The notes under the pieces: generated by a model | Told to the model about the DNA's origin: nothing | Seen by the model: only the letters and a program-made list of their open reading frames with translations | The model's database searches: none | Virus record (IMG/VR): IMGVR_UViG_3300047478_000188 | Location: 1 to 35,216 of that record | From: a virus | DNA: 35,216 nt | Reading direction: 5' to 3' (one strand) | Part shown: positions 15,342 to 29,922 of the stretch, piece by piece | Numbering within the stretch: position 1 is the first letter of the stretch | Layout: every line of letters starts with the position of its first letter | Translations under genes and position numbers: made by a program

Positions 15342-15362
15342 TGATATTAGATTGGAGTGAAA

Positions 15363-15911
15363 ATGTCAGAAGCTTGGGACGAATTATCAGATGAAGATAT
15401 TGAAGACGAATACGGTAGTGAATTGGATGATGTAGATTTTACATCCAACACACCTAGATTTGTTAAGATGGAACTCCTGTCTTTTGACGGAGCTAAACTA
15501 GCCTCAATGAGGGTTGATGAACTAATCAAGACCTATATTGAGGCTAGAAATCAATTAGGTACTGATCGTAAAGGCTATAAAGCTCGTGAGAAAGCTGTAA
15601 AAGAACATTTGGCCATGATTAGTATGGCTCTGAAAGAGAAGGCCGAGCCTTTAGGTGTAGACAATTTCAAGACTGAATTAGGTACTGCTTATAAAAACAA
15701 AAAGGAGACGTTTAAGGTATCTAATTGGGAAGAACTTGTCAAGTATCTTCAGGATACAAATAATTTTCATGTATTACAAAAACGTGTGTCTCCTTTAGCT
15801 GTCAAAGACATTCGAACAATCGATGGAGCAATCCCTCCAGGTGTAGAAGGGTTTACTATGATTGAATTTGCCGTGAGAAGTCCAACCTCACGTAAACCAA
15901 AAGTTGGATAA
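15363..15911 (+). CDS. Conserved phage protein of unknown function near recombination genes
   Basis: 182 residues from ATG 15363, with TTGGAG (15352-15357) upstream; an in-frame GTG at 15357 overlaps that site and is less likely. The N-terminal 35 residues are strongly acidic (SEAWDELSDEDIEDEYGSEL). Residues 55-110 are helical and charged, then comes GVDNFKTELGTAYKNKKETF and a C-terminal IPPGVEGFTMIEFAVR strand pair. I recognise the layout from many phage proteins found beside DNA replication and recombination genes, without an assigned activity. It has its own promoter. Confidence 0.7.
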   Translation: MSEAWDELSDEDIEDEYGSELDDVDFTSNTPRFVKMELLSFDGAKLASMRVDELIKTYIEARNQLGTDRKGYKAREKAVKEHLAMISMALKEKAEPLGVDNFKTELGTAYKNKKETFKVSNWEELVKYLQDTNNFHVLQKRVSPLAVKDIRTIDGAIPPGVEGFTMIEFAVRSPTSRKPKVG

Positions 15912-15928: not shown

Positions 15929-16183
15929 ATGGGAATCAAATCTAAGGAAATGGTGGATGGTTGCTTTGCCCGAGCAGCCATGGATGAGCCAATCTTTGTG
16001 CTTCGTGCACAGGATAAGAGCTCTCCAGCACTAGTAAGAGCATGGGCAGCTAAATTTCGTGACCAACATATCAAGGCTGGTACGTCGGGTCATGAATTGG
16101 CTAAAGCTATTACCAAGCATACAGGTGCACTTGAAACAGCTGATGCTATGGAAAAGTGGGCTACTCGCAAACAGGCAGATTAA
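15929..16183 (+). CDS. Small helical protein of unknown function
   Basis: 84 residues with AGGAATCA as ribosome binding site, the same string that precedes the next gene. The sequence (MGIKSKEMVDGCFARAAMDE, then SSPALVRAWAAKFRDQHIKA) looks fully helical and soluble. It lies between the acidic phage protein and the zinc-binding protein in a three-gene run behind one promoter. Family not recognised. Confidence 0.65.
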   Translation: MGIKSKEMVDGCFARAAMDEPIFVLRAQDKSSPALVRAWAAKFRDQHIKAGTSGHELAKAITKHTGALETADAMEKWATRKQAD

Positions 16184-16193
16184 GGAATCAATC

Positions 16194-17135
16194 ATGAGCA
16201 TGGAAATCCCAGAACATCTACGTACAGGCCCACTTGCTGATGCAGCTAAGAAAGCTTTGGAAGATGCCGCAAAGATGGCAGCATCTTCGAACAGCGTTCC
16301 ACGCATTAGCTTGAAGGGACGTGAATTTCGGCTGATCGATGGCGGTGAAGAAATTGCCAAGTTCAGAGACTCTCTGAATGTCATCATCCTTGGTGTGGAA
16401 CCAGAAGCTGGTCGGATGATCAAGACCTGGTACAAGGATGGTTACAAGTCCGGGTCTAAGGAACCACCTACCTGCAGTTCCGATGACGGAGTTTCACCTG
16501 CAAATTGGGTGAATGACAAACAAGCTGCTAACTGTAGCCAATGTCCGAAGAATCAGTTTGGTTCAGCAATTTCACCTAGTGGTAAGCCTACCAAAGCTTG
16601 CAGAGATAGCAAGCGTATCTGGGTCCGCATGGCTGATAACCATGTCTTGAAGGATGATGTCAGAGTACTTCATCCAACGTCCACAGTTCCATTCGCTGAA
16701 CGAACCATGTTCGGTCTGAATGTGACAGTGGCATCGCTGAAGGCTTTCAGTGAGTACGGCAAGAAGTTAGCCAGCTTAGGCCAAGGCCCTGCTGTTTGTG
16801 TGACCAAACTTGTCATGCTTGACATGGAGTATCCACAGCTGGATTTCCAATTACTTGCATGGCTCGATGCACAAGTGGCGCCCTTGTCCTTGGAAATTTC
16901 AGCCAAGAAGCCTTGGAAGATTCAGTATGCAAATGCTGGATTAGCATTGGCCCATGATGGCAGCTCATCGAATGCTTTACCTGTGAAGCTTCCAGGGCAA
17001 GTTCCTGACGTGCCACCTCACCTGCAAACTCAGCAAGTAGTTGTGGATGATGCCACTTCTGAACAGTTGATTGCAAAGGCCACTGAAAGACTCAAGCAAG
17101 ATATCAACATCGATGACGCCATCGGTAAGTGGTAA
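16194..17135 (+). CDS. Conserved phage protein with Cys cluster, possible ssDNA-binding role
   Basis: 313 residues from ATG 16194, with AAGGAATC upstream. A cysteine group (CSSDDGVSP, then CSQCPKNQFGSA, then CRDSKR, about residues 95-145) suggests a bound zinc. The rest is beta-rich, with an acidic C-terminal tail (DINIDDAIGKW) like those of single-stranded DNA-binding proteins. I have seen this family in many phage replication regions but without a firm function; ssDNA binding is a guess. Codons are clearly more GC-ending (CTG, GCC, AAG) than in neighbours, as for an abundant protein. It is the last gene before a structured non-coding stretch. Confidence 0.65.
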   Translation: MSMEIPEHLRTGPLADAAKKALEDAAKMAASSNSVPRISLKGREFRLIDGGEEIAKFRDSLNVIILGVEPEAGRMIKTWYKDGYKSGSKEPPTCSSDDGVSPANWVNDKQAANCSQCPKNQFGSAISPSGKPTKACRDSKRIWVRMADNHVLKDDVRVLHPTSTVPFAERTMFGLNVTVASLKAFSEYGKKLASLGQGPAVCVTKLVMLDMEYPQLDFQLLAWLDAQVAPLSLEISAKKPWKIQYANAGLALAHDGSSSNALPVKLPGQVPDVPPHLQTQQVVVDDATSEQLIAKATERLKQDINIDDAIGKW

Positions 17136-17262: not shown

Positions 17263-17427
17263 ATGACTAAAGACGAATTACACCGTAGACCTGGTATTAG
17301 AGCAATTATACATCAGTTGCGTATTGCTCATAGCTCCTGGTCTAAAGAGCGAATTTATACTGAAGCTAAACAACGTTGGACTGAGAGATATCTAAATGAA
17401 AAGCCTCCTACTAACCCTAGGTCATAA
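17263..17427 (+). CDS. Small basic protein of unknown function
   Basis: 54 residues, beginning MTKDELHRRPGIRAIIHQLR and rich in Arg and Lys, with SSWSKERIYTEAKQRWTERY forming a likely helix. It overlaps the start of the carbamoyltransferase gene by 32 nt in another frame. No good ribosome binding site is seen. The amphipathic helical pattern is gene-like, but the size and overlap make it uncertain. Confidence 0.45.
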   Translation: MTKDELHRRPGIRAIIHQLRIAHSSWSKERIYTEAKQRWTERYLNEKPPTNPRS

Positions 17428-18985
17428 TAGTTCTGCCATCTATATTCAAGATAATAAGATTTTATGGGGTTATGAGACTGAGCGTCTATCAGGTGTGAAG
17501 TCTGATAGTAGATTTCCTATGCCTATCATAGATAAATATATATCATACGATAAGCCTGATATTGTATATGTAACACACTGGGCTCCAGACGGCAATCTTA
17601 ATTCAATGAGCGAAAAGCATTGGGATCCAGCTTATTTTGATGGCATTCCAATTAGAACTTTGTCTACAAACTGCACACATCATGATACTCACATGGCTGC
17701 AGCTGTTTGCTATGCTAATCTGAATAAACCAAAAACATATGGTTTAGTGGTCGATGGATTTGGTACCTGTGGCGAACATTTTAGTATTTATGATCTATCT
17801 AATGGTGGCAACAAGTTAATTAGACGTATCCATGGTTATGAGACAAGTTTAGGATTGTGGTATCAATATGCCACGGCCTTTTTAGGTATGAAGATGCATG
17901 AAGATGAATTCAAGCTTTTAGGCTATGAAGCTCATGTACCATTAGACTTAGTGCCAGAACTAAATTCATTAGCTAGTCATTACACTACCAAATGGTTGGA
18001 GAAAATGGATGAATCTATATATAGGAGTAAGTATGACCCTGTATATAGTATAAATGCTTTAGCCAATATTAAGAATAACATTTTCAGTCATCTAACTTCA
18101 ATATGTCTAAATTTTAATCTTTCAAATTCTTCAGATTACCGCACTAGATGTGTAATAGCTTATTATGTACAAAAGGTACTTGAGAATGTGGTGTTATACC
18201 ATGTTCAAAAACTAGATGCTGATTACCTGGTTTTATCTGGCGGTGTATTCTACAATGTAAAACTGAATAAGTTGATTGTAGATGCAGTTAATAAGGCTGC
18301 ATGCATTTACCCATTAGCTGGTGATCAGGGCAATGCATTAGGTCTGTACTCAATTGACCACCCTGAATTCGTGTTCCCAGATAACCTCAACTGGGGTCAT
18401 CGGACCTTGTCTCATATCAAAGAAGTTGAGGGCTTATATACATTTAATGAGCAACAGGGTTATGATGTTATTAACATGCAACTGATTTCAAAAGGTATTG
18501 TTAATGTAGTAAGAGGTTCGATGGAATTTGGACCTCGTGCATTGTGCAATACATCCACATTAGCACTGCCTACACCCCAAAATGTAAGTGAAATTAATCT
18601 TGCCAATGATCGTAATACAGTAATGCCTATGGCGCCTGTAATGAGCCATAAGATGTATAAAGATTATTTTGAAAGAACAGATAAGTTACATAAGTCTCAA
18701 GCACATATGATTTGTGCAATGGAATATCAAGAGCATCCGTATGACCATATGCTAGGTGTGGCTCATGAATACCATACACCATATCATCATCATACAGGCC
18801 GCCCACAGGTTGCTAAGTCTGACGATAAACTGTTAAACCAATTATTTGATGCACATAAATCACCTCTGATTAATACATCATTCAATTATCATGGCATGCC
18901 TATAGCATGGGGCATGTCCAGCATCATAACAAACCATGTGATGCAATACCTCCGTGCTGACATTAAAACCGTGGTAATAATCTAA
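17396..18985 (+). CDS. NodU/TobZ-type carbamoyltransferase, likely DNA-modifying
   Basis: 529 residues. The N-terminal half has the Kae1-like pattern of NodU/CmcH/TobZ enzymes: LGHNSSAI, an ETERLSGVK segment, the metal-binding CTHHDTHMAAA and VVDGFGTCGEH. The C-terminal half has LSGGVFYNVKLN, GDQGNALG, GSMEFGPRALCNTS and INTSFNYHGMPI, all family hallmarks. These enzymes use carbamoyl phosphate and ATP to carbamoylate a hydroxyl group. In phage, homologues act on 5-hydroxymethylcytosine in DNA to form the carbamoyloxymethyl base. Here it starts a run of pyrimidine nucleotide genes and overlaps the MazG-like gene by 1 nt, which supports a DNA-base substrate. A surface or small-molecule substrate remains possible. 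Confidence 0.88.
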   Translation: MKSLLLTLGHNSSAIYIQDNKILWGYETERLSGVKSDSRFPMPIIDKYISYDKPDIVYVTHWAPDGNLNSMSEKHWDPAYFDGIPIRTLSTNCTHHDTHMAAAVCYANLNKPKTYGLVVDGFGTCGEHFSIYDLSNGGNKLIRRIHGYETSLGLWYQYATAFLGMKMHEDEFKLLGYEAHVPLDLVPELNSLASHYTTKWLEKMDESIYRSKYDPVYSINALANIKNNIFSHLTSICLNFNLSNSSDYRTRCVIAYYVQKVLENVVLYHVQKLDADYLVLSGGVFYNVKLNKLIVDAVNKAACIYPLAGDQGNALGLYSIDHPEFVFPDNLNWGHRTLSHIKEVEGLYTFNEQQGYDVINMQLISKGIVNVVRGSMEFGPRALCNTSTLALPTPQNVSEINLANDRNTVMPMAPVMSHKMYKDYFERTDKLHKSQAHMICAMEYQEHPYDHMLGVAHEYHTPYHHHTGRPQVAKSDDKLLNQLFDAHKSPLINTSFNYHGMPIAWGMSSIITNHVMQYLRADIKTVVII

Positions 18986-19389
18986 TGAGCAACTCCAGCC
19001 TTTCCCCAGTAATCAACGCCATTTTTGACTTCAATGAACAAGTCATTGGTACAGGTGATGTATCATTGAATACGCTCACTGAAAAACAATTCAATTGGAC
19101 TATTGGGTTCTGTCAAGAAGAACTGGTAGAATTTACTGAGGCCTATCAAAAGCAAGATATTGTCAAGATGGTAGATGGAATTCTTGACCTGATCTACGGT
19201 GCTATGGGTACGCTCAAGAAGATGGGTCTTACTCGTGAACAAGTCTTTGCATGCATGATGGCTATTCACACTGCCAACATGACTAAGAAGAAGGGTATGA
19301 CGGCTCGTGGTTCAGAAGAAGATGCTGCCAAACCTGCAGAATTCGTGCCTCCTGATCAAGCTATCGGTCATATTCTGTTTGGGGAGTGA
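18985..19389 (+). CDS. MazG-like all-alpha nucleotide pyrophosphatase (possible dCTPase)
   Basis: 134 residues. The metal site shows as EELVEFTEA (E-E-x-x-E) and the second helix as VDGILDLIYGAMG (D-x-x-x-D), the standard all-alpha NTP pyrophosphatase signature. The family hydrolyses (d)NTPs to monophosphates. In this operon the sensible job is to convert dCTP to dCMP, playing the role of T4 gp56: it feeds the pyrimidine C5-transferase and keeps unmodified dC out of phage DNA. That substrate choice is inference. It is 4 nt upstream of the kinase gene. The last 35 residues are a low-complexity tail. Confidence 0.78.
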   Translation: MSNSSLSPVINAIFDFNEQVIGTGDVSLNTLTEKQFNWTIGFCQEELVEFTEAYQKQDIVKMVDGILDLIYGAMGTLKKMGLTREQVFACMMAIHTANMTKKKGMTARGSEEDAAKPAEFVPPDQAIGHILFGE

Positions 19390-19393
19390 GACT

Positions 19394-19972
19394 ATGATCG
19401 TAGTACTTGAAGGACCTGACAATGCGGGTAAGACTACACTTGCTCGCATTTGGCAAGACGCTTTGCTAGACAAGGTTTCTTATCATCATCCTGGAGGTAA
19501 ACCTGATTCTCTAGAGCAAGAGGATCAGTGTATGATCGATCAACTGAATCTAGTTGAATCTTCGAAAGATTCAAACGCTATTCTTGATCGTGTAACAGCG
19601 ATTAGTCAACAAGTTTATAATCCACATGCTGTGTATAATAAGAATAGGGATTATTTCCTGAAAGAGATGCTGAAAAAAGGTATTATACTGCTTTATTGTC
19701 GACCTTCAGACGATAGATTAATGCGAACTGAAGACTTCAAATGGCGTGATGGTGAGACTGAGGAACATAAGCAAAAGATCATCCGAAATCAGCATCAGTT
19801 CATTAAAAATTACGATGATCTGATGCAACGTACTCCTCACATTACTTATAATCATGAAGATACTGTCATGGCTGATATGATTGTAGGCCATTCAATAGCT
19901 GCCTTTAACGGTAGCCAGATTAGTATTGCATGGTTTGAAAAGATTATGTTCTATACAAGGGGTTCCAAATGA
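19394..19972 (+). CDS. P-loop deoxynucleoside monophosphate kinase
   Basis: 192 residues from ATG 19394, with a strong GGGGAGTGAG site upstream. The P-loop is EGPDNAGKTT (residues 6-15), and ILDRVTAISQQVY (about 63-75) matches the DRxxxS motif of thymidylate kinase-type enzymes. A lid-like region rich in Arg and Lys follows (RPSDDRLMRTEDFKWRD). Such phage kinases convert dNMPs, including hydroxymethylated ones, to diphosphates, as T4 gp1 does. It lies between the pyrophosphatase and the ThyA-type enzyme and overlaps the latter by 4 nt. Confidence 0.85.
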   Translation: MIVVLEGPDNAGKTTLARIWQDALLDKVSYHHPGGKPDSLEQEDQCMIDQLNLVESSKDSNAILDRVTAISQQVYNPHAVYNKNRDYFLKEMLKKGIILLYCRPSDDRLMRTEDFKWRDGETEEHKQKIIRNQHQFIKNYDDLMQRTPHITYNHEDTVMADMIVGHSIAAFNGSQISIAWFEKIMFYTRGSK

Positions 19973-20808
19973 AAGTCATAAATACTGGTAGCAATATTCA
20001 GTCCATGCTTAAGATGTATGAGGCTGTAAGAGATGGTTATCATATGGTTGCTAGAGGTTCAGCCTGCATCAATGTACAAAACCTAGCAATTGTATTTAAT
20101 GCCAGCGAACCTGTCATCACAAGTTTTGATGCTAGACAGTTTAATTTACCGTATGCTAAAAGAGAATGGCTTTGGTACTTAGGTGCAGATAAGTTCGACT
20201 CTAGCATAGAGCAACATGCTACTATGTGGAAAAAGCTTAAACAACCTAATGGATCTTATTTCAGTAATTATGGTCAATACATTTTTGGTAAAAACGATCC
20301 GCCTGAGTCTGCTGAAACAAGTCAATCTCAGTTCGAATATGTAATTGATTGTTTATTGAGAGATCCACAGTCAAGACGAGCGTCCATAGTATTACTGGAT
20401 AAAGATCATTTGTTTTTGGATAATGTCGATACTGTATGCACATACAGTATCAATTTTACTCTTCAAGATGGCCGCTTAGATATGACAGTCATGATGAGAA
20501 GTAATGACGTCATCTTTGGGTTCACCAATGATGCATTCTGTTTTTGGAATTTATATCAGTTTGTTTACAGTATATTGCACCAGAAGATGGGCTCCTATAT
20601 CAAACAAGGATTTTATACCCATATAACAAACTCAATGCATGTATATGAGCGCCATTTTTTAATGATTAACCTTATTATTGAAGGCGGCGAATCTAAGTAT
20701 AAATTCATAGATGTGCCAAAACCTACAGCCACTGTATCTGAAATGCTAGTTGCAAGTAAAGGTAAAAATGGACGTGGTAAATATTACGACTGGCTCACGG
20801 CCGTCTAG
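19969..20808 (+). CDS. ThyA-family pyrimidine C5-transferase, probable dCMP hydroxymethylase
   Basis: 279 residues. Family motifs: SRRASIVLL (phosphate-binding arginines), DTVCTYSINF with catalytic C157, MRSNDVIFGFTND and HVYERH (His-x-Tyr as in the thymidylate synthase HIYSNH). Counting from RSND (D180), position 188 equals E. coli ThyA N177, which reads uracil; here it is Asp. T4 dCMP hydroxymethylase also has Asp at this position, where it selects cytosine. The residue after C157 is Thr rather than His. With ThyX encoded separately at 23648, this enzyme most likely makes 5-hydroxymethyl-dCMP. 5-methyl-dCMP or hydroxymethyl-dUMP are alternatives. Confidence 0.83.
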   Translation: MKVINTGSNIQSMLKMYEAVRDGYHMVARGSACINVQNLAIVFNASEPVITSFDARQFNLPYAKREWLWYLGADKFDSSIEQHATMWKKLKQPNGSYFSNYGQYIFGKNDPPESAETSQSQFEYVIDCLLRDPQSRRASIVLLDKDHLFLDNVDTVCTYSINFTLQDGRLDMTVMMRSNDVIFGFTNDAFCFWNLYQFVYSILHQKMGSYIKQGFYTHITNSMHVYERHFLMINLIIEGGESKYKFIDVPKPTATVSEMLVASKGKNGRGKYYDWLTAV

Positions 20809-21229
20809 AGATGCTTACTTTATTGCGATGGTGGCTTTAGTTGCGACTAGAGCCACATGTATTCGACGTAAAGTAGGCTGTATTCTGGTCAACGAGCAAG
20901 GCCATGTACTTGCAACAGGCTATAATGGTGTATGCGCAGGCGCAGTCCATTGTATTGACAAGCCATGTGCTGGGGCCAATCAACCTTCAGGTCAGGGCTT
21001 ACATCTATGCGAGGCGATTCATGCTGAACAGAATGCATTGATTCAGTGTCGTAACATAAATGAAATTCATACTGCTTATGTGACATCGTCACCATGCATA
21101 AGTTGTATGAGGTTACTGGCTAACACAAGTGTGACTCGAATAGTTTTTTCAGAAAGATACCCTCATGTCGAATCAGAACGCATTGCCTCCTCAAGGAACA
21201 TTGCCTGGGAACTCTTCTCGCCCAATTGA
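20768..21229 (+). CDS. dCMP deaminase
   Basis: 153 residues from ATG 20768, overlapping the ThyA-type gene by 41 nt in another frame. Zinc-site motifs are EAIHAEQNA (His and catalytic Glu) and SPCISC (two Cys). CIRRKVGCILV and GYNGVCAGAVHC with KPCAG fit the dCMP deaminase branch, which carries an extra zinc-binding segment. It converts dCMP to dUMP for dTMP synthesis, here by ThyX. In a phage that diverts dCMP to a modified base, this enzyme sets the split of the dCMP pool. Confidence 0.88.
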   Translation: MDVVNITTGSRPSRDAYFIAMVALVATRATCIRRKVGCILVNEQGHVLATGYNGVCAGAVHCIDKPCAGANQPSGQGLHLCEAIHAEQNALIQCRNINEIHTAYVTSSPCISCMRLLANTSVTRIVFSERYPHVESERIASSRNIAWELFSPN

Positions 21230-21509: not shown

Positions 21510-21528
21510 TAATTTAGAGGTGATAAAA

Positions 21529-22620
21529 ATGGAAGCTCAATATTTGTACCGCAAGAACTCACTTGGCATCGGCACTTGGCGTATTTGGCATCAGCCAGTA
21601 AGTGCCTCACATGCAATTATCCTTATCGCCCACTGCACTGTGGAGGGGGGATCTGAAATAGTGCATCGGGATGATGTAAAGACTAATCTATCAGGTAGGT
21701 CTATCATGGACCAGGTTACACTGGAGATGAAGTCCAGAATTAGTCGCCAACTTGATAAGGGTTATAAGTATAGCCTTGAAGAAGCCTTGAAAGGCAGTAC
21801 AAATCAGTTAGGTCTGATTAACCCAATGTTGGCTCAAAAACTTCAAGATGTCACACTCACCGGTAGTGATTTCAATGATGCTTATGTTCAGTACAAATTG
21901 GATGGACACCGTTGCCTGATTACTAAACAGGCTGGAGCAATGTTGGCTTATAGCCGTAAAGGCAAACCAATTGATACTATTCCACACATTTTGGAAGATG
22001 CCTATAACTGGATGCAAGATGGTGATACTTTGGATGGCGAACTTTACATCCATGGTAGACCATTGCAAAGTATTAGCAGTTTGATTAAGCGTAATCAACC
22101 TGATAGCAAACTATTACAATACCACTGGTATGATATAGCAGATAAGTCTGCTAAATATGGTAGCAGATACTCTCTCATGAAAGATCTGTTTGCTAGTTCC
22201 AAGTGCCCTCAACTGAAATTAGTTGAGACTACTAAAGTTGAGAAAATGTCTGAAGTTTATGCTCACTTCAGAGAAGCTCGATCATTGGGCTATGAAGGAT
22301 CCATGCTTAGATTGTCAAAAGCTGGATACCAAGATGCTCATCGTGCTAATCAATTGATCAAGATCAAAGAGCGTCATGACTGTGAGGTAACAGTCATTTC
22401 AGGTCGTCCATCGGCACGTGGTTGGGCTATACTGAGAGTTATGACTGATGATGGCGTTGAATTCGATGTATCGGCTCCAGGATCAGTTCAAGAAAAACTA
22501 CTTGTGATGCTTCATATTGATAAGTATATCAGTAAGCGGTTGACCATTGAATATGCAATGCTTACTGATGATAAGGTGCCTTTTCATGCTGTAGCCACGG
22601 CTTGGAGAGAAGATATATGA
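21529..22620 (+). CDS. ATP-dependent DNA ligase with WGR-like N-terminal domain
   Basis: 363 residues from ATG 21529, with AGAGGTG upstream. Motif I is YVQYKLDGHR with the adenylated Lys at 123. Others are YSRKGKPI (motif Ia region), DTLDGELYIHG (motif III), GYEGSMLRL (motif IV) and LIKIKERHD (motif V). An oligonucleotide-binding domain follows (EVTVISGRPSARGWAI onward). Residues 1-80 resemble a WGR-like domain as found at the front of many phage ligases (LYRKNSLGIGTWRIWHQ, ending KSRISRQLDKGYK). It seals nicks during replication and repair. Its own promoter precedes it. Confidence 0.9.
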   Translation: MEAQYLYRKNSLGIGTWRIWHQPVSASHAIILIAHCTVEGGSEIVHRDDVKTNLSGRSIMDQVTLEMKSRISRQLDKGYKYSLEEALKGSTNQLGLINPMLAQKLQDVTLTGSDFNDAYVQYKLDGHRCLITKQAGAMLAYSRKGKPIDTIPHILEDAYNWMQDGDTLDGELYIHGRPLQSISSLIKRNQPDSKLLQYHWYDIADKSAKYGSRYSLMKDLFASSKCPQLKLVETTKVEKMSEVYAHFREARSLGYEGSMLRLSKAGYQDAHRANQLIKIKERHDCEVTVISGRPSARGWAILRVMTDDGVEFDVSAPGSVQEKLLVMLHIDKYISKRLTIEYAMLTDDKVPFHAVATAWREDI

Positions 22621-23472: not shown

Positions 23473-23669
23473 ACGAACTTAATGTAATCAGAACTTGTGG
23501 TATTGATCCAAAATGTGATCACGTTATGGATCAATATGAGCCTATCTTTTCAGAAGAAGGCCGGAAGTGCGGTGAAACACTTGTATGTTCGAAGTGTGGC
23601 ACATCCGCATATGAAATTTCTTTGCGTGAAAGTTTTGAGGTGAAATCATGCGCCATAATGTCAGACTGA
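23469..23669 (+). CDS. Small zinc-ribbon-like protein
   Basis: 66 residues, ATGA overlap with the previous gene. Cysteines at RTCG, PKCDH, GRKCGE and LVCSKCG could bind zinc. The C-terminal third overlaps the ThyX start by 22 nt in another frame. Two cysteine-rich small proteins in a row suggest a shared origin or role, which I cannot name. Confidence 0.6.
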   Translation: MNELNVIRTCGIDPKCDHVMDQYEPIFSEEGRKCGETLVCSKCGTSAYEISLRESFEVKSCAIMSD

Positions 23670-24559
23670 TACTATCTTCTGAAGCGAATGGTGTACAGCT
23701 TCATACATTTCAATTGAAGTATTGGCGGGCCATTCATGCTGAGGTCTTGACTCATAGAGACTTCAGTAGAAACTCCGGATCTAGTAGGGCAATTCCGGTT
23801 GACAAGATGCTCAAGCAGATTCGAGAGAATCCAGCTGGACCTACTTACTGGGGTAAAAATGAGAAGGGTATGCAGGCATCTGAAGAAAACGATGCTACTG
23901 TAACTATCCCACATAATTTACAATACGCATTTACGGATTTCTGTGCTTCATCAGGCGTTAATTGGGATATATCTTATATCTTCAAGCACTGTCCTCGTGA
24001 AGTAGCTTGGGAATTCAGTGCTTGGCTAGCTGCAAGTATGTCTGAAGCATTTAGTAACGCTGGTTATCATAAACAGGTGGCTAACCGGATTACAGAGCCA
24101 TATCAGTATATGAATGTGATTGTGTCATCAACTGAGTGGCACAATTTCTTTAATCTCCGCTGCCATCCTGATGCAATGCCTGAATTCAGGGATATTGCAA
24201 TTGATATGCAGCAACTCATTCATGATTCTAGGCCTAGAAAACTTCAAATGGGTGAATGGCATATCCCATTCATCTCGACTGAAGAAGCGCTACAACCGTT
24301 GAATGTGCAATTGAAGTTATCAACGGCTCGTTGTGCTTCGACAAGTTTCAAAACCGTCGAAGGACTTGATATGACCTTCGATACTGCTGTAAGGATTTTT
24401 GACAAGCTTGTAGGTAGCAATCCATTGCATGCATCGCCCAGTGAGCATCAAGCTAAATTTGGGTCAATCGAAGGGGTTCAACTTAGGAATTGGGCTTCTA
24501 ATTTTAGATCTCCATGGGTTCAACATCGTAAGTTTATTGAAAATGGATGGAGTTTCTGA
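23648..24559 (+). CDS. thyX: Flavin-dependent thymidylate synthase ThyX
   Basis: 303 residues. The ThyX signature appears as LTHRDFSRNSGSSRA (about residues 34-48), a variant of RHR-x7-S. Supporting segments are HAEVLTHRD, HKQVANRITEPYQYMNVIVS, EWHNFFNLRCH and the C-terminal STARCAS. ThyX makes dTMP from dUMP with FAD, NADPH and methylenetetrahydrofolate. Having it beside a ThyA-family gene with a cytosine-type base pocket supports separate roles for the two. It is longer than usual bacterial ThyX (about 220-250), as in other phage versions. The neighbouring small genes overlap it on both sides. Confidence 0.85.
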   Translation: MRHNVRLILSSEANGVQLHTFQLKYWRAIHAEVLTHRDFSRNSGSSRAIPVDKMLKQIRENPAGPTYWGKNEKGMQASEENDATVTIPHNLQYAFTDFCASSGVNWDISYIFKHCPREVAWEFSAWLAASMSEAFSNAGYHKQVANRITEPYQYMNVIVSSTEWHNFFNLRCHPDAMPEFRDIAIDMQQLIHDSRPRKLQMGEWHIPFISTEEALQPLNVQLKLSTARCASTSFKTVEGLDMTFDTAVRIFDKLVGSNPLHASPSEHQAKFGSIEGVQLRNWASNFRSPWVQHRKFIENGWSF

Positions 24560-24789
24560 TGCATCCTAGTAATATTGACCTAATGTGGGTAGTTACAATC
24601 AATTACACTAACTATAAGGGTCAAACGGCTAATCGAAAGATTGTACCTCATTCAATTCATTTTGGTAAAACTGAGTTTCATCCTCAACCTCAATGGTTAT
24701 TGACTGCTACTGACATAGATAAGAACGAATTAAGAGTATTTGCTTTGAAAGACATCCATTCTTGGATTAATTCTTGGAGTGATTCATGA
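24559..24789 (+). CDS. Small WYL-like fold protein
   Basis: 76 residues from ATG 24559, sharing one base with the ThyX stop. VTINYTNYKGQTANRKIVPHSIHFG, W48-type QWLLTATDIDKNELRVFALKDIHSW resembles a single WYL domain (Y-N-x-G, R-x-I-P, W-x-L-x-A, R-x-F-x-L-x-x-I). Stand-alone WYL-like proteins occur in phages; WYL domains often sense nucleic acids or nucleotides. No DNA-binding domain is attached. Fold assignment is by pattern only. Confidence 0.55.
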   Translation: MHPSNIDLMWVVTINYTNYKGQTANRKIVPHSIHFGKTEFHPQPQWLLTATDIDKNELRVFALKDIHSWINSWSDS

Positions 24790-25202
24790 TTACTAATTAT
24801 GTCCTCGGATTTGCTTTTGACGATCTTGATCGAGTGGCTCTTATTTGCAAGAATAAGCCTAAATGGCAAGCAGGTAAATGGAATGGAATTGGCTGTAAGA
24901 TTGAGGGCAATGAATCTACTGACAAAGCTATGGCACACCAGTTTCATGAAGAAACTGGTGTGTTTGTGCCGCCTGAATTCTGGCGTCCAATCGGATTAAT
25001 GCACCTGCCTTCGGCCAATGTATGTGTATTTACATATTCTGGTGCAATAATCCGGAATGTATTCACTGCTGAAACAGAGGAAGTTAGATTATTTACACTT
25101 TCAGAAGTGAATTTTTTACCTACATTGAGCAATATTCCTGCGCAAATAGCTCTCTGCAAGGTTAAAGATATGATTGATTTCACAATTAACTTCAGCCAAT
25201 AG
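24786..25202 (+). CDS. Divergent Nudix hydrolase
   Basis: 138 residues, ATGA overlap with the previous gene. The Nudix region reads GCKIEGNESTDKAMAHQFHE followed by ETGV. Compared with GGKIExGE-x7-REUxEExG, the R-E pair is replaced by His-Gln, while the later two Glu (HEE) and Gly are kept. The flanking WQAGKWNGIG strand fits the fold. Nudix proteins clean up nucleotide pools or cut capped or ADP-ribose compounds. The changed R-E pair suggests altered chemistry or substrate. It is the last gene of the ligase/ThyX operon. Confidence 0.75.
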   Translation: MITNYVLGFAFDDLDRVALICKNKPKWQAGKWNGIGCKIEGNESTDKAMAHQFHEETGVFVPPEFWRPIGLMHLPSANVCVFTYSGAIIRNVFTAETEEVRLFTLSEVNFLPTLSNIPAQIALCKVKDMIDFTINFSQ

Positions 25203-25317: not shown

Positions 25318-25406
25318 CGCCGGGTGGCGAAATAGGTAGACGCAAGGGACTTAAAATCCCTCGACCCTCACAGGTCATACCGGTTCGATTCCGGTGCCGG
25401 CGACCA
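25318..25406 (+). tRNA. tRNA-Leu (UAA)
   Basis: 89 nt including encoded CCA. The anticodon loop CTTAAAA in a GGGA/TCCC stem gives UAA, with a long class II variable arm as in tRNA-Leu. D arm GCG/CGC and T arm ACCGG-TTCGATT-CCGGT are regular. The acceptor stem has a G-G mismatch at its inner end. It reads UUA, a frequent codon in this phage. Confidence 0.92.
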
Positions 25407-25408
25407 TC

Positions 25409-25483
25409 GTGCCTTTAGCTCAATGGATAGAGCAATTGCCTTCTAAGCAATAGATACAGGTTCGATTCCTGTAAGGCATACCA
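25409..25483 (+). tRNA. tRNA-Arg (UCU)
   Basis: 75 nt with encoded CCA, 2 nt after tRNA-Leu. The loop CTTCTAA gives anticodon UCU, reading AGA. The acceptor GTGCCTT pairs with AAGGCAT (first pair G-U). T arm ACAGG-TTCGATT-CCTGT is regular. Confidence 0.92.
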
Positions 25484-25492
25484 AGGATTTAT

Positions 25493-25684
25493 ATGAAATT
25501 CATTTTCTTTGTAGTATATTTGACAGCTCAATCATCTTATCAAGATGTTTATATATATAAAGAGATAGGGTTATCAACCCATGAATGTCATCATAAGTTG
25601 CTTCAAGCTCCTTTAGGATCATTGGATAATGCAAAAGATCTTGTAGTTATTGCTAAATGCATTCCTACTAATCTGTCAATGTAA
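25493..25684 (+). CDS. Small protein between tRNA genes, possible signal sequence
   Basis: 63 residues with AAGGATTT upstream. The first 13 residues (MKFIFFVVYLTAQ) form a basic plus hydrophobic start that could be a signal peptide or membrane anchor. Two Cys follow at CHH and KCIP. It sits between tRNA-Arg and the CAU tRNA, close to both, so it may be translated from an unprocessed tRNA transcript. Family not recognised. Confidence 0.5.
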   Translation: MKFIFFVVYLTAQSSYQDVYIYKEIGLSTHECHHKLLQAPLGSLDNAKDLVVIAKCIPTNLSM

Positions 25685-25690
25685 TTCAAG

Positions 25691-25767
25691 GGGCCGTTAG
25701 CTCAGTTGGTTAGAGCAGAGGACTCATAATCCTTTGGTCGTTGGTTCGAATCCAACACGGCCTACCA
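25691..25767 (+). tRNA. tRNA with CAU anticodon, probably tRNA-Ile2 (AUA)
   Basis: 77 nt with encoded CCA. The loop CTCATAA gives CAU. The anticodon arm GGACTCATAATCC and following TTTGGTCG resemble E. coli ileX more than elongator Met tRNA. The phage uses ATA codons heavily, so the C34-to-lysidine tRNA-Ile2 is the likely identity; elongator Met is the alternative. The acceptor GGGCCGT pairs with ACGGCCT (G-U first pair). Confidence 0.85.
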
Positions 25768-25779
25768 TAATCAAATAGT

Positions 25780-25809
25780 TGTACATCCTGGCTACTTATG
25801 CTATATAAT
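25780..25809 (+). promoter_or_regulatory. Sigma70-like phage promoter (TGTAC subclass)
   Basis: AATCAAA upstream (25769-25775), TGTACA (25780-25785), an 18-nt spacer with TCCTGGCTACTTATGC, and TATAAT (25804-25809). The spacer matches the promoters at 27942 and 34687. Expected start near 25816. The leader carries TTGGAG before ATG 25831, as at 15352. Confidence 0.82.
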
Positions 25810-25830
25810 TGGTAATAGATTGGAGCAACT

Positions 25831-26100
25831 ATGAAATATCGGGATAAAGAAGCCTGTGTAATGTCCAGGCAGATTAGTAGCATGGTTAGGGCGTTGCGTA
25901 AGCTAAATAAGAAAACTCAACCTGACCTAGCTAGTGAAATGGGAATGTGCATATCGACATATTGCCCAATGGAACTTGGCTATAAAGAATGGTCTTTATA
26001 CAGAATACAAAAGGTGTGTCAAATATTCAATATAACTGTACTAGAACTATTCACCATGGCTAGTAGAGTTGATCCAGTTAAAACTAAGCATTCTGTATAA
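25831..26100 (+). CDS. XRE-family helix-turn-helix regulator
   Basis: 89 residues. MVRALRKLNKKTQPDLASEM then CISTYCPMELGYKEWSLYRIQKVCQIF fits a Cro/C1-type five-helix HTH: the TQPDLASEMG helix pair, a recognition helix beginning CISTY, then the stabilising helices. An alternative start at ATG 25861 (MSRQISS) would trim ten residues, but the strong TTGGAG site favours 25831. It heads its own operon behind a phage promoter, so it may regulate that promoter family. Targets are unknown. Confidence 0.72.
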   Translation: MKYRDKEACVMSRQISSMVRALRKLNKKTQPDLASEMGMCISTYCPMELGYKEWSLYRIQKVCQIFNITVLELFTMASRVDPVKTKHSV

Positions 26101-26579
26101 TGGACGCATACGTTAAAGCCTTCATTAAGACTCATGTTCGCATTGATTCTGGCGGACGTGCTTTTATCAAAGATAAACAGATTGAAGTACATATTATAGG
26201 CGGTGTGAAGAAAATTGTATTGCCTATAAGCAAAATTCTTTACACGTTTGAAGACATCAAACGTGCTGGAGGTGAGTGTCAAGTAGTGACCTTAGCATCT
26301 CTGGCTAGAGCTGGTGGTGAAGGGCGTTGGAAAGAAGTCATTCAAGAACGTAAAGAGCAAGGTATACCATCTAATGTATATATTGCCAATGCTCGCACGA
26401 TCAACTTGGCTATCGCTAATAATAAGACTCCACCTCCAATCAAGTGGATTGGTCGTATACGGGATAAAATGACTGAGGTCTATGACACTATAGATCAAGT
26501 CATTGATGCTATGGATAATAACCGTTGGAAAACGGAATTTTCTAAAGGTCGTAATGCTAAAAGGAAAACCTCATCATGA
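26100..26579 (+). CDS. Protein of unknown function
   Basis: 159 residues, starting on the last base of the regulator's stop. A beta-rich first third (RIDSGGRAFIKDKQIEVHII) is followed by helices, a TPPPIKWIGRIRDKM segment and a very basic C-terminus (KGRNAKRKTSS). The basic tail could bind nucleic acid. I do not recognise the family. Confidence 0.65.
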   Translation: MDAYVKAFIKTHVRIDSGGRAFIKDKQIEVHIIGGVKKIVLPISKILYTFEDIKRAGGECQVVTLASLARAGGEGRWKEVIQERKEQGIPSNVYIANARTINLAIANNKTPPPIKWIGRIRDKMTEVYDTIDQVIDAMDNNRWKTEFSKGRNAKRKTSS

Positions 26580-26755
26580 GATCTTTGTGGAAGAAACCTA
26601 CTCCTTCGTTGAAAGATATCCTGATTCAAGAATCTGAGCTCTTAAATAAAGATATTATGGAGCGTCAATTGAACATGATTGATGCACAAAATAAACTGAA
26701 TGCTCAGATTGCTAAACAACAACTTATTGAGAGCTGGCTTAGGGGACTCGTATGA
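26576..26755 (+). CDS. Small coiled-coil protein
   Basis: 59 residues in ATGA overlaps at both ends, with the genes before and after. The sequence from residue 12 to the end is one predicted helix rich in Gln, Glu, Leu, Ile and Lys (QESELLNKDIMERQLNMIDA). The overlaps and good frame support translation. Function unknown. Confidence 0.65.
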   Translation: MRSLWKKPTPSLKDILIQESELLNKDIMERQLNMIDAQNKLNAQIAKQQLIESWLRGLV

Positions 26756-27258
26756 AAATCTATCACAATCCCGATCATTCATTGATCATCGAGCAAAGTC
26801 GTGTCATTAATAGGGATCAGTCAAATCGTCAACTTGAAAGAGATTTGTACTTAGAACCTTTCCCTGAACCAGATTTCTCATTTATACAGGGTAATCATCC
26901 ACTGCCAGACGGATCGATTGAAATTATTGGTAAAGAAGTACAACTTCTCACTCATAAGCCATTAACTTTGTGGTTTACACGCATTAATGACTCTTTAGGC
27001 ATTATTGCTTACGACATAATTAATCATCTGACAGGCTTAAATAATAGGTACTTATGCAATCGTGAAGGCTATGTACCCTTTGTGGCCGGTATAAGCCCCT
27101 TACCACTCTTTGATAAAGGTGCTTATAAGATTATTTGCCAAGACAATGACAAAATGTTTCCACCTAATGAAGTACGTGAAACAAGGTATTTCGAAGCTGA
27201 CATTACTAATTGGGGTGAAGGAACTAGTGTTATTGGCTGGAAACCCGTAGCATACTGA
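26752..27258 (+). CDS. Protein of unknown function
   Basis: 168 residues, soluble, with Pro- and aromatic-rich strands (LYLEPFPEPDFSFIQGNHPL, PLTLWFTRINDSLGI). No signal peptide or metal motif is seen. It is chained by overlap to the genes before and after (1 nt overlap with the next). Family not recognised. Confidence 0.65.
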   Translation: MKIYHNPDHSLIIEQSRVINRDQSNRQLERDLYLEPFPEPDFSFIQGNHPLPDGSIEIIGKEVQLLTHKPLTLWFTRINDSLGIIAYDIINHLTGLNNRYLCNREGYVPFVAGISPLPLFDKGAYKIICQDNDKMFPPNEVRETRYFEADITNWGEGTSVIGWKPVAY

Positions 27259-27701
27259 TGCAATACTTTGTGTTAATGCCTAAAGGTCAACTAACTGTGG
27301 CGAAGTTAGTTGACGAAGGCCAGGTGCTAAATACTCCTTTTACCAGCTGGCCACTGAATACTGGTAAAAGTGTTTCATTCGTGAATATTAGACTTCATAA
27401 ACTCCTGAAGTCCTTTTATATCAGTGGTACGTATGCTTCTGGAGCGATGTACGGATTGCCTTATGATCAAATGGTGAGTCTTGTAACATCGCACATTGGT
27501 CTTGATGAAAAGACTTTTTATAATCAGATAATTCAGCAATCGTCTGTAAAGGATGAATATCATCGCAATAGGCTCATAATGACGTTTGTAGGTAGACTGT
27601 CAATGAGTTTTATTGTGATTCTATATGAAATTTGCAAGTTTGTATTGATAATGTTGATTATACCGTTCATAATCAAACTATTCACTGGTAAACAGAGGTA
27701 A
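27258..27701 (+). CDS. Protein with C-terminal membrane anchor
   Basis: 147 residues. The last 40 contain a long hydrophobic segment (FIVILYEICKFVLIMLIIPF) followed by a basic end (KLFTGKQR), so it is probably tail-anchored in the inner membrane with the N-terminal domain in the cytoplasm. It is followed after 1 nt by another membrane protein gene. Function unknown. Confidence 0.65.
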   Translation: MQYFVLMPKGQLTVAKLVDEGQVLNTPFTSWPLNTGKSVSFVNIRLHKLLKSFYISGTYASGAMYGLPYDQMVSLVTSHIGLDEKTFYNQIIQQSSVKDEYHRNRLIMTFVGRLSMSFIVILYEICKFVLIMLIIPFIIKLFTGKQR

Positions 27702-27702
27702 C

Positions 27703-27915
27703 ATGTCACAAACTAAGTTTCAAAGTGTGGTTGAGTCTATTACTAACACACTTACAGGTTACTTGTCTGGATTGATCACTCAATTAATTGTCTTTCCATT
27801 TTTCAATATTAATATTCCATTAGCTAGTAATATGGCTCTTGTAGGTGTCTTTACAATAATTAGTCTAATAAGAAACTATGTTATTAGACGTTGGTTCAAT
27901 ACTAAACAAAAATAA
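27703..27915 (+). CDS. Small membrane protein common in phages
   Basis: 70 residues with two hydrophobic helices (about 18-36 and 41-58) and a basic C-terminus (RNYVIRRWFNTKQK). The pattern SxVESxxNTLTGYLxGLxTQ, PFF, then SLIRNYxIRRxF matches a membrane protein family I have seen in very many phages (DUF7220-like). Its role is unknown. It ends the operon 26 nt before the next promoter's upstream region. Confidence 0.7.
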   Translation: MSQTKFQSVVESITNTLTGYLSGLITQLIVFPFFNINIPLASNMALVGVFTIISLIRNYVIRRWFNTKQK

Positions 27916-27941
27916 TTCGTGATTATCATTGATCAAAACGG

Positions 27942-27970
27942 TGTACTCCTGGCCTCCTATGCTATATAAT
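27942..27970 (+). promoter_or_regulatory. Sigma70-like phage promoter (TGTAC subclass)
   Basis: TTGATCAAA (27929-27937), TGTACT (27942-27947), a 17-nt spacer with CCTGGCCTCCTATGC, and TATAAT (27965-27970). The leader to ATG 28054 is about 77 nt. It can form a stem of GGTG-TTGG with CCAA-G-CACC, and ends in AAAGGA. This promoter probably drives the GC-rich gene and the RNA/tRNA cluster that follows. Confidence 0.8.
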
Positions 27971-28053
27971 TTATACATGTTGGTAATGAGGTGTTGGTGC
28001 AACCGCTTTATCAACCCATCCGACCAAGCACCGTTCTCTAAAGGATGACAGAA

Positions 28054-28647
28054 ATGTCCGAAACCCAAGAAACATCCACTCCTGTGGAAACCCAAGCTGG
28101 CGCGGCTTCGCAAAGCCCTGTCAGTGCCTCAGCTGAAGCGGCTCGCAAGCGTGCGGCTGCTGCCAACTTCCTGCCGATCGTTCGCGGTCGCCTGCCATTG
28201 CTCTTCGTGCATGCCCTGCGTTTCGACGCCGTTCTGTTGGCCCTGTCTACCAAGGACGCTGCCACCAAGTTCGGTACGTCGGTGGGCAAGGTGTTCGACA
28301 TCCGCAAGGGCCGCAACTTCGCCTACATCACGGCTGACTTCAAGCCGTCTGCAGAAGATGTTGCACAAGCTGAAGCCTGGATCGCGCAAGTCGGCGGCGC
28401 CAATGCCAAGGGCTTGACTGCAAACGGTGACAAGAACGTGATGCAAGCAACGCTCGATCAGTACAAGGCTCAAGGCCTGGCCTCGGTCGAAGAAAGCGCC
28501 AAGTTTGCAGCTGTTCGCACCTCGACACGAGCCAAGGCCACGGTGGCTCCCGCTTCCACAGGCCTGGTGGCGAATACCACGGCAACTCCGGTTCAGACCG
28601 AAGCTGTGCAGAACGTGGCCAATGCGGCGGATGACCTGCTGAGCTAA
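28054..28647 (+). CDS. Unknown protein with GC-rich codon use, probably abundant
   Basis: 197 residues from ATG 28054; AAAGGA (28040-28045) fits this start better than ATG 28045, which it overlaps. It has a Thr/Ala/Gln-rich N-terminus and a KKR-like basic patch. A compact centre (FLPIVRGRLPLLFVHALRFD, STKDAATKFGTSVGKVFDIR) could be helix-turn-helix-like. The tail is Ala/Thr-rich and low-complexity. Codons end in C or G (CTG, GCC, CGC, AAG) far more than in the surrounding genes. That fits adaptation to a GC-rich host for high expression, or recent transfer. Family not recognised. Confidence 0.75.
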   Translation: MSETQETSTPVETQAGAASQSPVSASAEAARKRAAAANFLPIVRGRLPLLFVHALRFDAVLLALSTKDAATKFGTSVGKVFDIRKGRNFAYITADFKPSAEDVAQAEAWIAQVGGANAKGLTANGDKNVMQATLDQYKAQGLASVEESAKFAAVRTSTRAKATVAPASTGLVANTTATPVQTEAVQNVANAADDLLS

Positions 28648-28726
28648 GCTCAACTGGGCGGCGAAAGGGGTTAGTCTCCCGAGGTCTTAAAATTGTAAAG
28701 TTTTAAGATCTGAAGATGACTTGAGC
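28648..28726 (+). ncRNA. Predicted structured RNA segment A
   Basis: Directly follows the stop codon. GCTCAA (28648-28653) can pair with TTGAGC (28721-28726). Inside is a strong 11-position hairpin AGGTCTTAAAA (28682-28692) with TTTTAAGATCT (28701-28711) containing one G-U pair, plus a small GGG/CCC hairpin. There is no T run of terminator type and no reading frame. It may be part of a longer RNA with the next element. Confidence 0.4.
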
Positions 28727-28753
28727 CTGGGCATGCAAAGGAACTGCCTAAAG

Positions 28754-28884
28754 TTATTATAGGGAGATGCTTGATTCCAGTGGGAGAGTGGTTACTCACT
28801 TAAATAGTACCGTGCGTTCAAGAAAGTCTGCAGCTTCGCTTGAACCTAAACAATGACTTATAGCCAAGCATCTCCCTATAATAA
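28754..28884 (+). ncRNA. Predicted structured RNA B, closed by a perfect 20-bp helix, 3 nt before tRNA-Pro
   Basis: TTATTATAGGGAGATGCTTG (28754-28773) is the exact reverse complement of 28865-28884. The 91 nt between contain AGTGGG/CTCACT and GTTCAAG/CTTGAAC (with AAG/CTT inside) hairpins, so a branched fold is likely. tRNA-Pro starts at 28888. No coding frame fits. It contains TAGTACCGT, which also occurs in element E. Chance pairing of 20 bp is very unlikely. Function unknown. Confidence 0.65.
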
Positions 28885-28887
28885 TTT

Positions 28888-28964
28888 CGGAGTATAGCGC
28901 AGTCAGGTAGCGCATCTGCTTTGGGAGCAGAGGGTCGTAGGTTCGAATCCTACTATTCCGACCA
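28888..28964 (+). tRNA. tRNA-Pro (UGG)
   Basis: 77 nt with encoded CCA. The loop TTTGGGA gives anticodon UGG, reading CCA and related codons. The acceptor CGGAGTA pairs with TATTCCG. T arm GTAGG-TTCGAAT-CCTAC is perfect. The sequence is close to bacterial proM, including the C1 start typical of tRNA-Pro. Confidence 0.93.
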
Positions 28965-28969
28965 AGTTT

Positions 28970-29045
28970 TGAGGTCCGACAGCTAGCCACTGCCACAAGA
29001 GAAGAGTTCAGCGGATGGAGTGATCAACTCCTAATGACCACCTCA
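28970..29045 (+). ncRNA. Predicted structured RNA segment C
   Basis: TGAGGT (28970-28975) can pair with ACCTCA (29040-29045). Inside is a perfect GGAGT-gatca-ACTCC hairpin (29017-29031) and a possible CCG/CGG pair. It starts 5 nt after tRNA-Pro and ends 38 nt before the next gene. The pairing evidence is weaker than for elements B, E and F. It may be tRNA-transcript trailer or gene leader. Confidence 0.35.
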
Positions 29046-29083
29046 TTCCAATTACAGGGATTTCATCTTTTGAAAGACTGATC

Positions 29084-29437
29084 ATGGCAAAGAAAATTCC
29101 TGTTCGATTGCACATCGGAGTTAATCTCATGAATCCACCTGAGGGCGTAAGTTATGGTGGACTTCGCACTACACTGACTGATTCTGTGAGCGAAACAAAG
29201 GTGAATATCATCGCTGCTACAGTTGAACCTTTGATTGATGAAGGCGGTAATCTGCAACTTGTTGCAGAGTTCCAGGATGTCCAGTCTGGTGATACTGTTA
29301 CCTGTACTGCTGAAGCATTGGACAACATTGGCAACCCCATCGGCACGATGGTTACCCATGTGGCTTTGGTGGATACTGTGCCGGACGACGCAGGTCCTAA
29401 GTATTTGCAACCATCATTTCTTTTCATCTCGATTTAA
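29084..29437 (+). CDS. Beta-rich protein of unknown function
   Basis: 117 residues. Strand-rich sequence with alternating hydrophobics (KVNIIAATVEPLIDEGGNLQ, DTVTCTAEALDNIGN), which could form an Ig-like or small beta-sandwich domain. No signal peptide is seen. The ribosome binding site is weak (GAAAGA). It is isolated between the structured RNA segments and tRNAs. A virion or host-interaction role is possible but unsupported. Confidence 0.55.
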   Translation: MAKKIPVRLHIGVNLMNPPEGVSYGGLRTTLTDSVSETKVNIIAATVEPLIDEGGNLQLVAEFQDVQSGDTVTCTAEALDNIGNPIGTMVTHVALVDTVPDDAGPKYLQPSFLFISI

Positions 29438-29452
29438 GTAAGCCCGTATTGA

Positions 29453-29500
29453 GTTGGGTAGTGGAGTAGTACCAACAAAGGGCGATCAGCAGGCTGCTCG
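29453..29500 (+). other. Hairpins in non-coding stretch (segment D)
   Basis: GTTGGGTA (29453-29460) pairs with TACCAAC (29470-29476) with one bulge, and AGCA-ggc-TGCT follows near 29488-29498. The stretch 29438-29549 holds no gene and also carries the palindromes CTAGGCCTAG and CCTAATTAGG near 29525-29545. It may be the 5' part of the RNA at 29550. Confidence 0.35.
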
Positions 29501-29549
29501 AAAGAGTATAAAACTAGACCCATCCTAGGCCTAGCACCTAATTAGGAGT

Positions 29550-29691
29550 ATTTATTGTTGTGACTAAGAACTCCCCTATGAAGGCTTAAGTCCCCTTCTT
29601 AACAAAGCACGTGTGTAATGAGGGTGTAGTTAAAACAGTGCGGTGCGCTAGTACCGTATATCCATGGTCTGGCTTGGTTACAACAATAAAT
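29550..29691 (+). ncRNA. Predicted structured RNA E, closed by a 15-bp helix, 5 nt before a tRNA-like gene
   Basis: ATTTATTGTTGTGAC (29550-29564) pairs with GTTACAACAATAAAT (29677-29691) through 15 positions with one G-U. Inner hairpins include GAAGG/CCTTC (near 29580-29598) and TGCGGT/ACCGTA (near 29639-29658). It shares TAGTACCGT with element B. No plausible reading frame is present. The tRNA-like gene begins at 29697. Function unknown. Confidence 0.6.
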
Positions 29692-29696
29692 GTTTT

Positions 29697-29778
29697 AGGG
29701 AATTAGCTCAGTCTGGTAGAGCAGCTCATGGACTAGTACATGAGAAGGTCCTTGGTTCAAATCCTTGATTCCCTACCA
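29697..29778 (+). tRNA. tRNA-like gene with abnormal anticodon arm
   Basis: 82 nt with encoded CCA, about 5 nt longer than a normal class I tRNA. The acceptor AGGGAAT/ATTCCCT is perfect and the D arm GCTC-AGTCTGGTA-GAGC is normal. The anticodon arm is CTCATG-GACTAGTA-CATGAG, a 6-bp stem with an 8-nt loop, in which U33 is not in its usual place. An AGU reading would need a three-base bulge. The T arm CTTGG-TTCAAAT-CCTTG has two U-U mismatches. The anticodon cannot be assigned: it may be a decayed tRNA or a special tRNA-like RNA. Confidence 0.6.
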
Positions 29779-29779
29779 A

Positions 29780-29841
29780 GGGGCGCCGGTCCGTTGTTCC
29801 AGGAGTGTTGCAACGGTTTAGACGACACCACACGGCGCCCC
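29780..29841 (+). ncRNA. Predicted structured RNA F, 6 nt before tRNA-Thr
   Basis: GGGGCGCCG (29780-29788) pairs perfectly with CGGCGCCCC (29833-29841). Inside, CCGTTG (29791-29796) pairs with CAACGG (29811-29816). The 62-nt element fills nearly the whole gap between the tRNA-like gene and tRNA-Thr. No T run follows, so it is not a normal terminator. It could be a processing spacer or a free RNA. Confidence 0.55.
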
Positions 29842-29847
29842 ACCCTA

Positions 29848-29922
29848 GCCGATTTAGCTCAGTGGTAGAGCAACTGCCTTGTAAGCAGTAGGTCATCAGT
29901 TCGATCCCGATAATCGGCACCA
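29848..29922 (+). tRNA. tRNA-Thr (UGU)
   Basis: 75 nt with encoded CCA. The loop CTTGTAA in an ACTGC/GCAGT stem gives UGU, reading ACA. The acceptor GCCGATT pairs with AATCGGC. The body is close to bacterial thrU. The T stem ATCAG/CCGAT is imperfect. Confidence 0.92.

Follow-up and report, generated by a model that had tools for sequence, protein, structure and literature searches.

Which molecule would be carbamoylated by a virus that carries a NodU-type carbamoyltransferase (CT) at the head of a row of nucleotide-metabolism genes? The question is raised by the linear IMG/VR virus record IMGVR_UViG_3300047478_000188, whose 35,216 bases are here called the window. Its positions 17396-21229 hold five successive plus-strand genes, encoding a CT, a MazG-like protein, a P-loop kinase, a ThyA-family enzyme and a deoxycytidine monophosphate (dCMP) deaminase. 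An earlier interpretation made from the bare letters (the sequence-only reading) had proposed a T4-like route to a carbamoylated hydroxymethyl base, on either deoxycytidine (dC) or deoxyuridine (dU). The comparisons presented here support such a base well and narrow it to cytosine, on the identity of the CT and the pocket of the ThyA-family enzyme. With a probability of roughly 0.87, as judged from homology, the cluster is predicted to replace cytosine in the phage DNA with 5-carbamoyloxymethylcytosine (5cmdC).

The five-gene cluster

The five identities and their order, as first proposed, were recovered with Pfam and PHROG, the kinase by PHROG and a structural model.

17396..18985, + strand: CT, NodU/TobZ-type, predicted 5-hydroxymethylcytosine (5hmC) carbamoyltransferase, 529 amino acids (Pfam, PHROG, identity to the validated enzyme)
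18985..19389, + strand: MazG-like (PRA-PH, all-alpha) deoxynucleoside triphosphate (dNTP) pyrophosphatase, predicted dCTPase-type step with presumed substrate (PF01503, phrog_671)
19394..19972, + strand: P-loop deoxynucleoside monophosphate (dNMP) kinase of the thymidylate-kinase type, predicted kinase of 5-hydroxymethyl-dCMP (hmdCMP), substrate presumed (phrog_761, AlphaFold2 model)
19969..20808, + strand: ThyA-family enzyme, predicted dCMP 5-hydroxymethylase (PDB sequence, profile and AlphaFold2 matches, Asp188)
20768..21229, + strand: dCMP deaminase, predicted to supply deoxyuridine monophosphate (dUMP) (PF00383, phrog_174, zinc motifs)

The genes are adjacent, and three of the overlaps described earlier stand: 1 nucleotide between the CT and MazG-like genes, 4 between the kinase and ThyA-family genes and 41 between the latter and the deaminase gene. 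The kinase most likely starts at the ATG at 19394 and not at the GTG at 19307, and hence the overlap once drawn between the MazG-like gene and the kinase falls away. The start of the deaminase also needs correcting, most likely to the ATG at 20768.

The carbamoyltransferase and its acceptor

The CT matches both domains of its family in Pfam (Carbam_trans_N, 3.8e-19; Carbam_trans_C, 1.4e-21) as well as phrog_1601 (3.3e-61), and its profile search finds the NovN, GdmN and TobZ structures. It retains an HxxxH motif (H95-H99) and D310, positions which we take to be those of the Kae1/TobZ metal site. A weak AbiEi match returned by PADLOC for the same protein (1e-4) was taken as chance.

With regard to the acceptor, the most informative comparison is with a CT validated in vitro, to which the window's protein is 39% identical over the full length (219/557 aligned columns, E 3e-115); identity to the plasmid NodU-type proteins of rhizobia is only about 24%. 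The validated enzyme carbamoylates 5-hydroxymethyldeoxycytidine (5hmdC) in DNA as well as its triphosphate (5hmdCTP), but neither 5hmdUTP nor 5mdCTP (Yang et al., eLife 2021, PMC8670742). The same study ties three TobZ positions, G421 and R423 among them, to modified contigs. Mapped onto the window's CT from motif spacing, the three fall at V371, C384 and T386. Cys384 and Thr386, at the positions of TobZ G421 and R423, recur in the validated enzyme and in almost every relative; Gly and Arg stand there in the antibiotic CTs GdmN and NovN and in the CT of cyanophage P-RSM4, while the W408 position was not discriminating in this comparison. The P-RSM4 gene, used as a negative control, adjoins 2-oxoglutarate (2OG) oxygenases and is close to a tail fibre gene; the stretch examined contains no thymidylate synthase (TS). 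A quick tree placed the window's CT with those of three viral loci (L007, L062, L008) at full support, and together with the validated enzyme in a group of 26 rows at 92% support only.

The ThyA-family enzyme

The ThyA-family protein matches Thymidylat_synt in Pfam (5e-16) and phrog_160 (5.1e-32). Its Cys157 corresponds to the catalytic C146 of E. coli ThyA, Thr158 to His147 and Asp188 to Asn177. At this last position, which governs specificity for dUMP or dCMP, the alignment shows T4 dCMP hydroxymethylase with an Asp as well, in agreement with the cytosine-type pocket of the sequence-only reading. Positions 177 and 147 were the two most discriminating ThyA positions in the 2021 study, Asp177 being the pattern of modified contigs (PMC8670742). 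The top PDB sequence matches are T4 dCMP hydroxymethylase (3.5e-16) and the CMP hydroxymethylase MilA (6.6e-16). MilA is also the top match of the AlphaFold2 model (mean predicted local distance difference test, pLDDT, 93.7), with Z 28.1 and a root-mean-square deviation of 2.3 over 258 residues, whereas ThyA enzymes and the dCMP hydroxylase of phage HY126 reach a Z of about 23-24. A role as dCMP 5-hydroxymethylase is thus a well-supported prediction from the alignments and the model.

Among the structural matches were the HY126 dCMP hydroxylase structures 9iqc and 9iqu (Z about 23), and the protein could accordingly be imagined as a flavin-dependent dCMP 5-hydroxylase resembling AfhB, in which case the modified base would be 5-hydroxycytosine bearing a carbamate. 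This is very unlikely. The model lies closer to MilA (Z 28.1 vs 23.7), and the profile scores follow the same ranking, with 138 and 117 bits for the hydroxymethylases against 81 bits for the hydroxylase. Furthermore, the window's protein aligns to its C-terminus with MilA and ThyA, whereas the hydroxylase match stops at residue 238, and the validated CT acts on 5hmC (PMC8670742). A literature search on the phage dCMP hydroxylase yielded nothing useful.

Linkage of carbamoyltransferase and ThyA-family genes across viruses

When viral contigs were scanned using only the CT alignment, 55 loci were recovered, and a TS-family gene lies within about 6 kb of the CT in 50 of them. Among the other five, L052 has such a gene elsewhere on its contig and the remaining four records are short (4.6 to 24 kb). 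Asp occupies the specificity position in every TS-family protein of the CT loci (53/53), as it does in that of the window; the same profile picks up E. coli ThyA, which has Asn, with an E-value of 1.4e-21 and would hence have revealed proteins of the Asn type. The uniform Asp in a separate set of 80 TS loci, found using an Asp-type query, was not counted as evidence. A deaminase accompanies the CT in 31 of the 55 loci, a MazG gene in 20 and a kinase in 20. Because the whole set of five is kept in the window's order in 16, a chance association is excluded.

Four loci (L036, L039, L041 and L004) hold two Asp-type TS-family paralogues; in such loci the second carries an unusual motif, e.g. NLLTLLPYD, and may have another role.

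The linkage bears on the remaining explanations. A dCMP deaminase gene adjoins the ThyA-family gene, and the enzyme might then be a dUMP hydroxymethylase fed by the deaminase, with carbamoyloxymethyl-uracil as the final base, as the earlier mention of dU allowed. There is little to be said for this, given the enzyme's Asp and Thr at ThyA positions 177 and 147, CMP and dCMP hydroxymethylases as its top matches, and the same Asp in all CT-linked TS proteins; moreover, the related validated CT did not act on 5hmdUTP (PMC8670742).

A CT whose acceptor is a surface sugar or small molecule, as with NodU or TobZ, and which is placed beside nucleotide genes by coincidence, is equally hard to credit. 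In its favour, sugars and antibiotics are the usual acceptors of the family, and the cyanophage gene described above, near its tail fibre gene and 2OG oxygenases, shows a setting of a different kind. However, the 5hmC CT is the nearest of the characterised proteins, and the near-universal linkage to an Asp-type TS and the Cys/Thr signature argue against such an acceptor.

Phages commonly carry TS, dCMP deaminase, MazG-type and kinase genes, but an ordinary set making deoxythymidine monophosphate (dTMP), without DNA modification, is most improbable here, as the TS pocket is of the dCMP type, a separate ThyX-like gene is present on the fragment for dTMP, and dTMP supply makes no use of a CT.

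The nucleotide-pool enzymes

The MazG-like protein matches PRA-PH (PF01503) at 1.2e-8, above the curated cut-off, and phrog_671 at 1.1e-19; its EExxE and DxxxD positions are invariant among 15 aligned sequences. By sequence the kinase is the weakest of the five calls (phrog_761, 5.9e-14; Pfam match under the cut-off). Nonetheless, GxDxxGK and DR...S...Y are invariant in its own alignment of 15 sequences, and its AlphaFold2 model (pLDDT 92.8) matches YorR and thymidylate kinases with Z of about 14. The T4-like logic is well supported. The kinase is of the thymidylate-kinase type: YorR and thymidylate kinases head the results, and gp1 was seen neither among the sequence matches nor among the structural matches listed. 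The dCMP deaminase (PF00383, 5.4e-18; phrog_174, 5.9e-39) carries HAE and CISC zinc motifs and matches the T4 enzyme and other dCMP deaminases in the PDB. PADLOC gave it a match which is common to dCTP-deaminase defence proteins.

Proposed pathway

The MazG-like enzyme would remove dCTP by converting it into dCMP, which the Asp-type ThyA-family enzyme would hydroxymethylate to 5-hydroxymethyl-dCMP using methylene-tetrahydrofolate. The kinase would then form 5hmdCDP, and the nucleoside diphosphate kinase of the host 5hmdCTP. With carbamoyl phosphate and ATP, the CT would carbamoylate this hydroxymethyl group, acting on 5hmdCTP itself or on fresh, partly single-stranded DNA. In parallel, the deaminase would divert dCMP to dUMP, which the product of the ThyX-like gene could convert to dTMP. 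For this phage all steps are read from homology, carbamoylation of 5hmdC having been shown in vitro for the 39% identical relative. The resulting base is named as 5cmdC with fair confidence, and its benefit is likely to be protection from host restriction enzymes.

The stage at which the carbamoyl group would be added is a more tentative matter. Carbamoylation before incorporation was raised in the 2021 paper because the enzyme works on 5hmdCTP (PMC8670742), and the tight packing of the CT with nucleotide-pool genes fits this order without proving it. It is a possible, though rather doubtful, course of events that in this phage group 5-carbamoyloxymethyl-dCTP is made first and inserted directly by the phage polymerase, unlike the post-replication decoration of T4.

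Several points weigh against the 5cmdC pathway as a whole. An identity of 39% to the validated enzyme is no proof of the same acceptor, and the substrates of the MazG-like protein and the kinase are deduced from gene context. As the fragment is linear and 35,216 bases long, the phage could have more modification genes beyond its ends. Lastly, chemical data for this phage or for any cultured relative were not found in the literature searched.

Comparison with known systems

The sequence-only reading had traced the known phage CTs acting on 5hmC to clusters containing TET enzymes and had regarded a nucleotide-level route as a different one. Neither point agrees with the 2021 study: the characterised CT originated from a contig bearing a TS-family gene, and the same T4-like route to the carbamoylated base was already proposed there (PMC8670742). 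In our own data the TET_JBP domain was found in 0/50 related records, in a search run without a positive control and with the window itself outside it. Since both the key enzyme and the route were described in 2021, the cluster is a well-supported new example, not a new system.

In that study, the domains co-occurring most often with CTs were TS, PRA-PH/MazG and dCMP deaminase, and CT together with TS was reported on modified contigs only (PMC8670742). Its MetaGPA sewage phage contigs share with the window the CT signature residues, the linkage to these three domains and the Asp-type TS. The window comes from a different phage and has a ThyX-like gene as well; it also has a kinase, whereas no kinase is named among the top co-occurring domains in the text available (PMC8670742).

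The same five-gene order is found in Xanthomonas phage Xp15 (gp39-gp35, NC_007024), with a DNA ligase further downstream. Its CT and TS are 41% and 36% identical to those of the window and are annotated as 'Nol-like carbamoyltransferase' and 'thymidylate synthase'; apart from the sequence divergence, Xp15 differs in additional genes separating deaminase and ligase. Acinetobacter phages MD-2021a, Effie and HHU4 (CT about 41% identical) share the local gene order, including two genes upstream of the cluster and a ligase downstream, but the gene following the CT is longer (about 224 codons) and the CT has Gly, not Cys, at the TobZ 421 position. Bacteroides fragilis phage BF503P2 and its relatives have a CT 33% identical and annotated deoxycytidylate hydroxymethyltransferases; these phages differ in having two dCMP hydroxymethylase paralogues, another gene order and an encoded dUTPase. 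In the literature searched, the base was not reported for the Xp15, Acinetobacter or Bacteroides carriers, and it was named only in PMC8670742.

T4 follows the same logic of dCTP removal, dCMP hydroxymethylation, phosphorylation and decoration of the hydroxymethyl group through gp56, gp42, gp1, Cd and glucosyltransferases, and its gp42 is a homologue of the window's ThyA-family enzyme. The window differs in the predicted carbamoyl group instead of glucose, in its thymidylate-kinase-like kinase and in a MazG-like protein replacing gp56.

Genomic context

Tail genes (tape measure, tail tip J) occupy the left part of the fragment, and primase, polymerase, exonuclease and helicase genes precede the five-gene cluster. 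Two further features follow it.

21520-22620: ATP-dependent ligase, downstream of the cluster
23648..24559, + strand: divergent ThyX-like flavin-dependent thymidylate synthase (phrog_85, PF02511)

The ThyX-like gene matches phrog_85 at 1e-61 and PF02511 at 9.2e-6, just over the cut-off; its product has THRDFSRNSGSSR, near the ThyX motif. ThyX occurs in 3/16 related records, Xp15 among them. Since the ThyA-family enzyme would be redirected to dCMP, this gene plausibly supplies dTMP.

Just upstream of the CT lie two uncharacterised genes, at 16059-17135 (phrog_27714) and 15357-15911 (phrog_13900, 'minor head protein'), which are kept in this place in most five-gene relatives and may belong to the replication module. 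Further along the fragment are a NUDIX hydrolase (24786-25202), five tRNA genes (Leu, Arg, Met, Pro, Thr) scattered among small unknown genes at 25318-29922, and an Rv2179c-like 3'-5' exoribonuclease (29938-30480). A search of a phage collection for near-identical DNA returned no match, and thus no close relative of the fragment is deposited there.

Significance

A DNA modification that was published but has seen little follow-up is here extended to a group of phages some of which, namely Xp15 and the Acinetobacter and Bacteroides phages, are in culture. These cultured carriers make both the presence of 5cmdC in virions and the choice between carbamoylation at the nucleotide stage and at the DNA stage directly testable.

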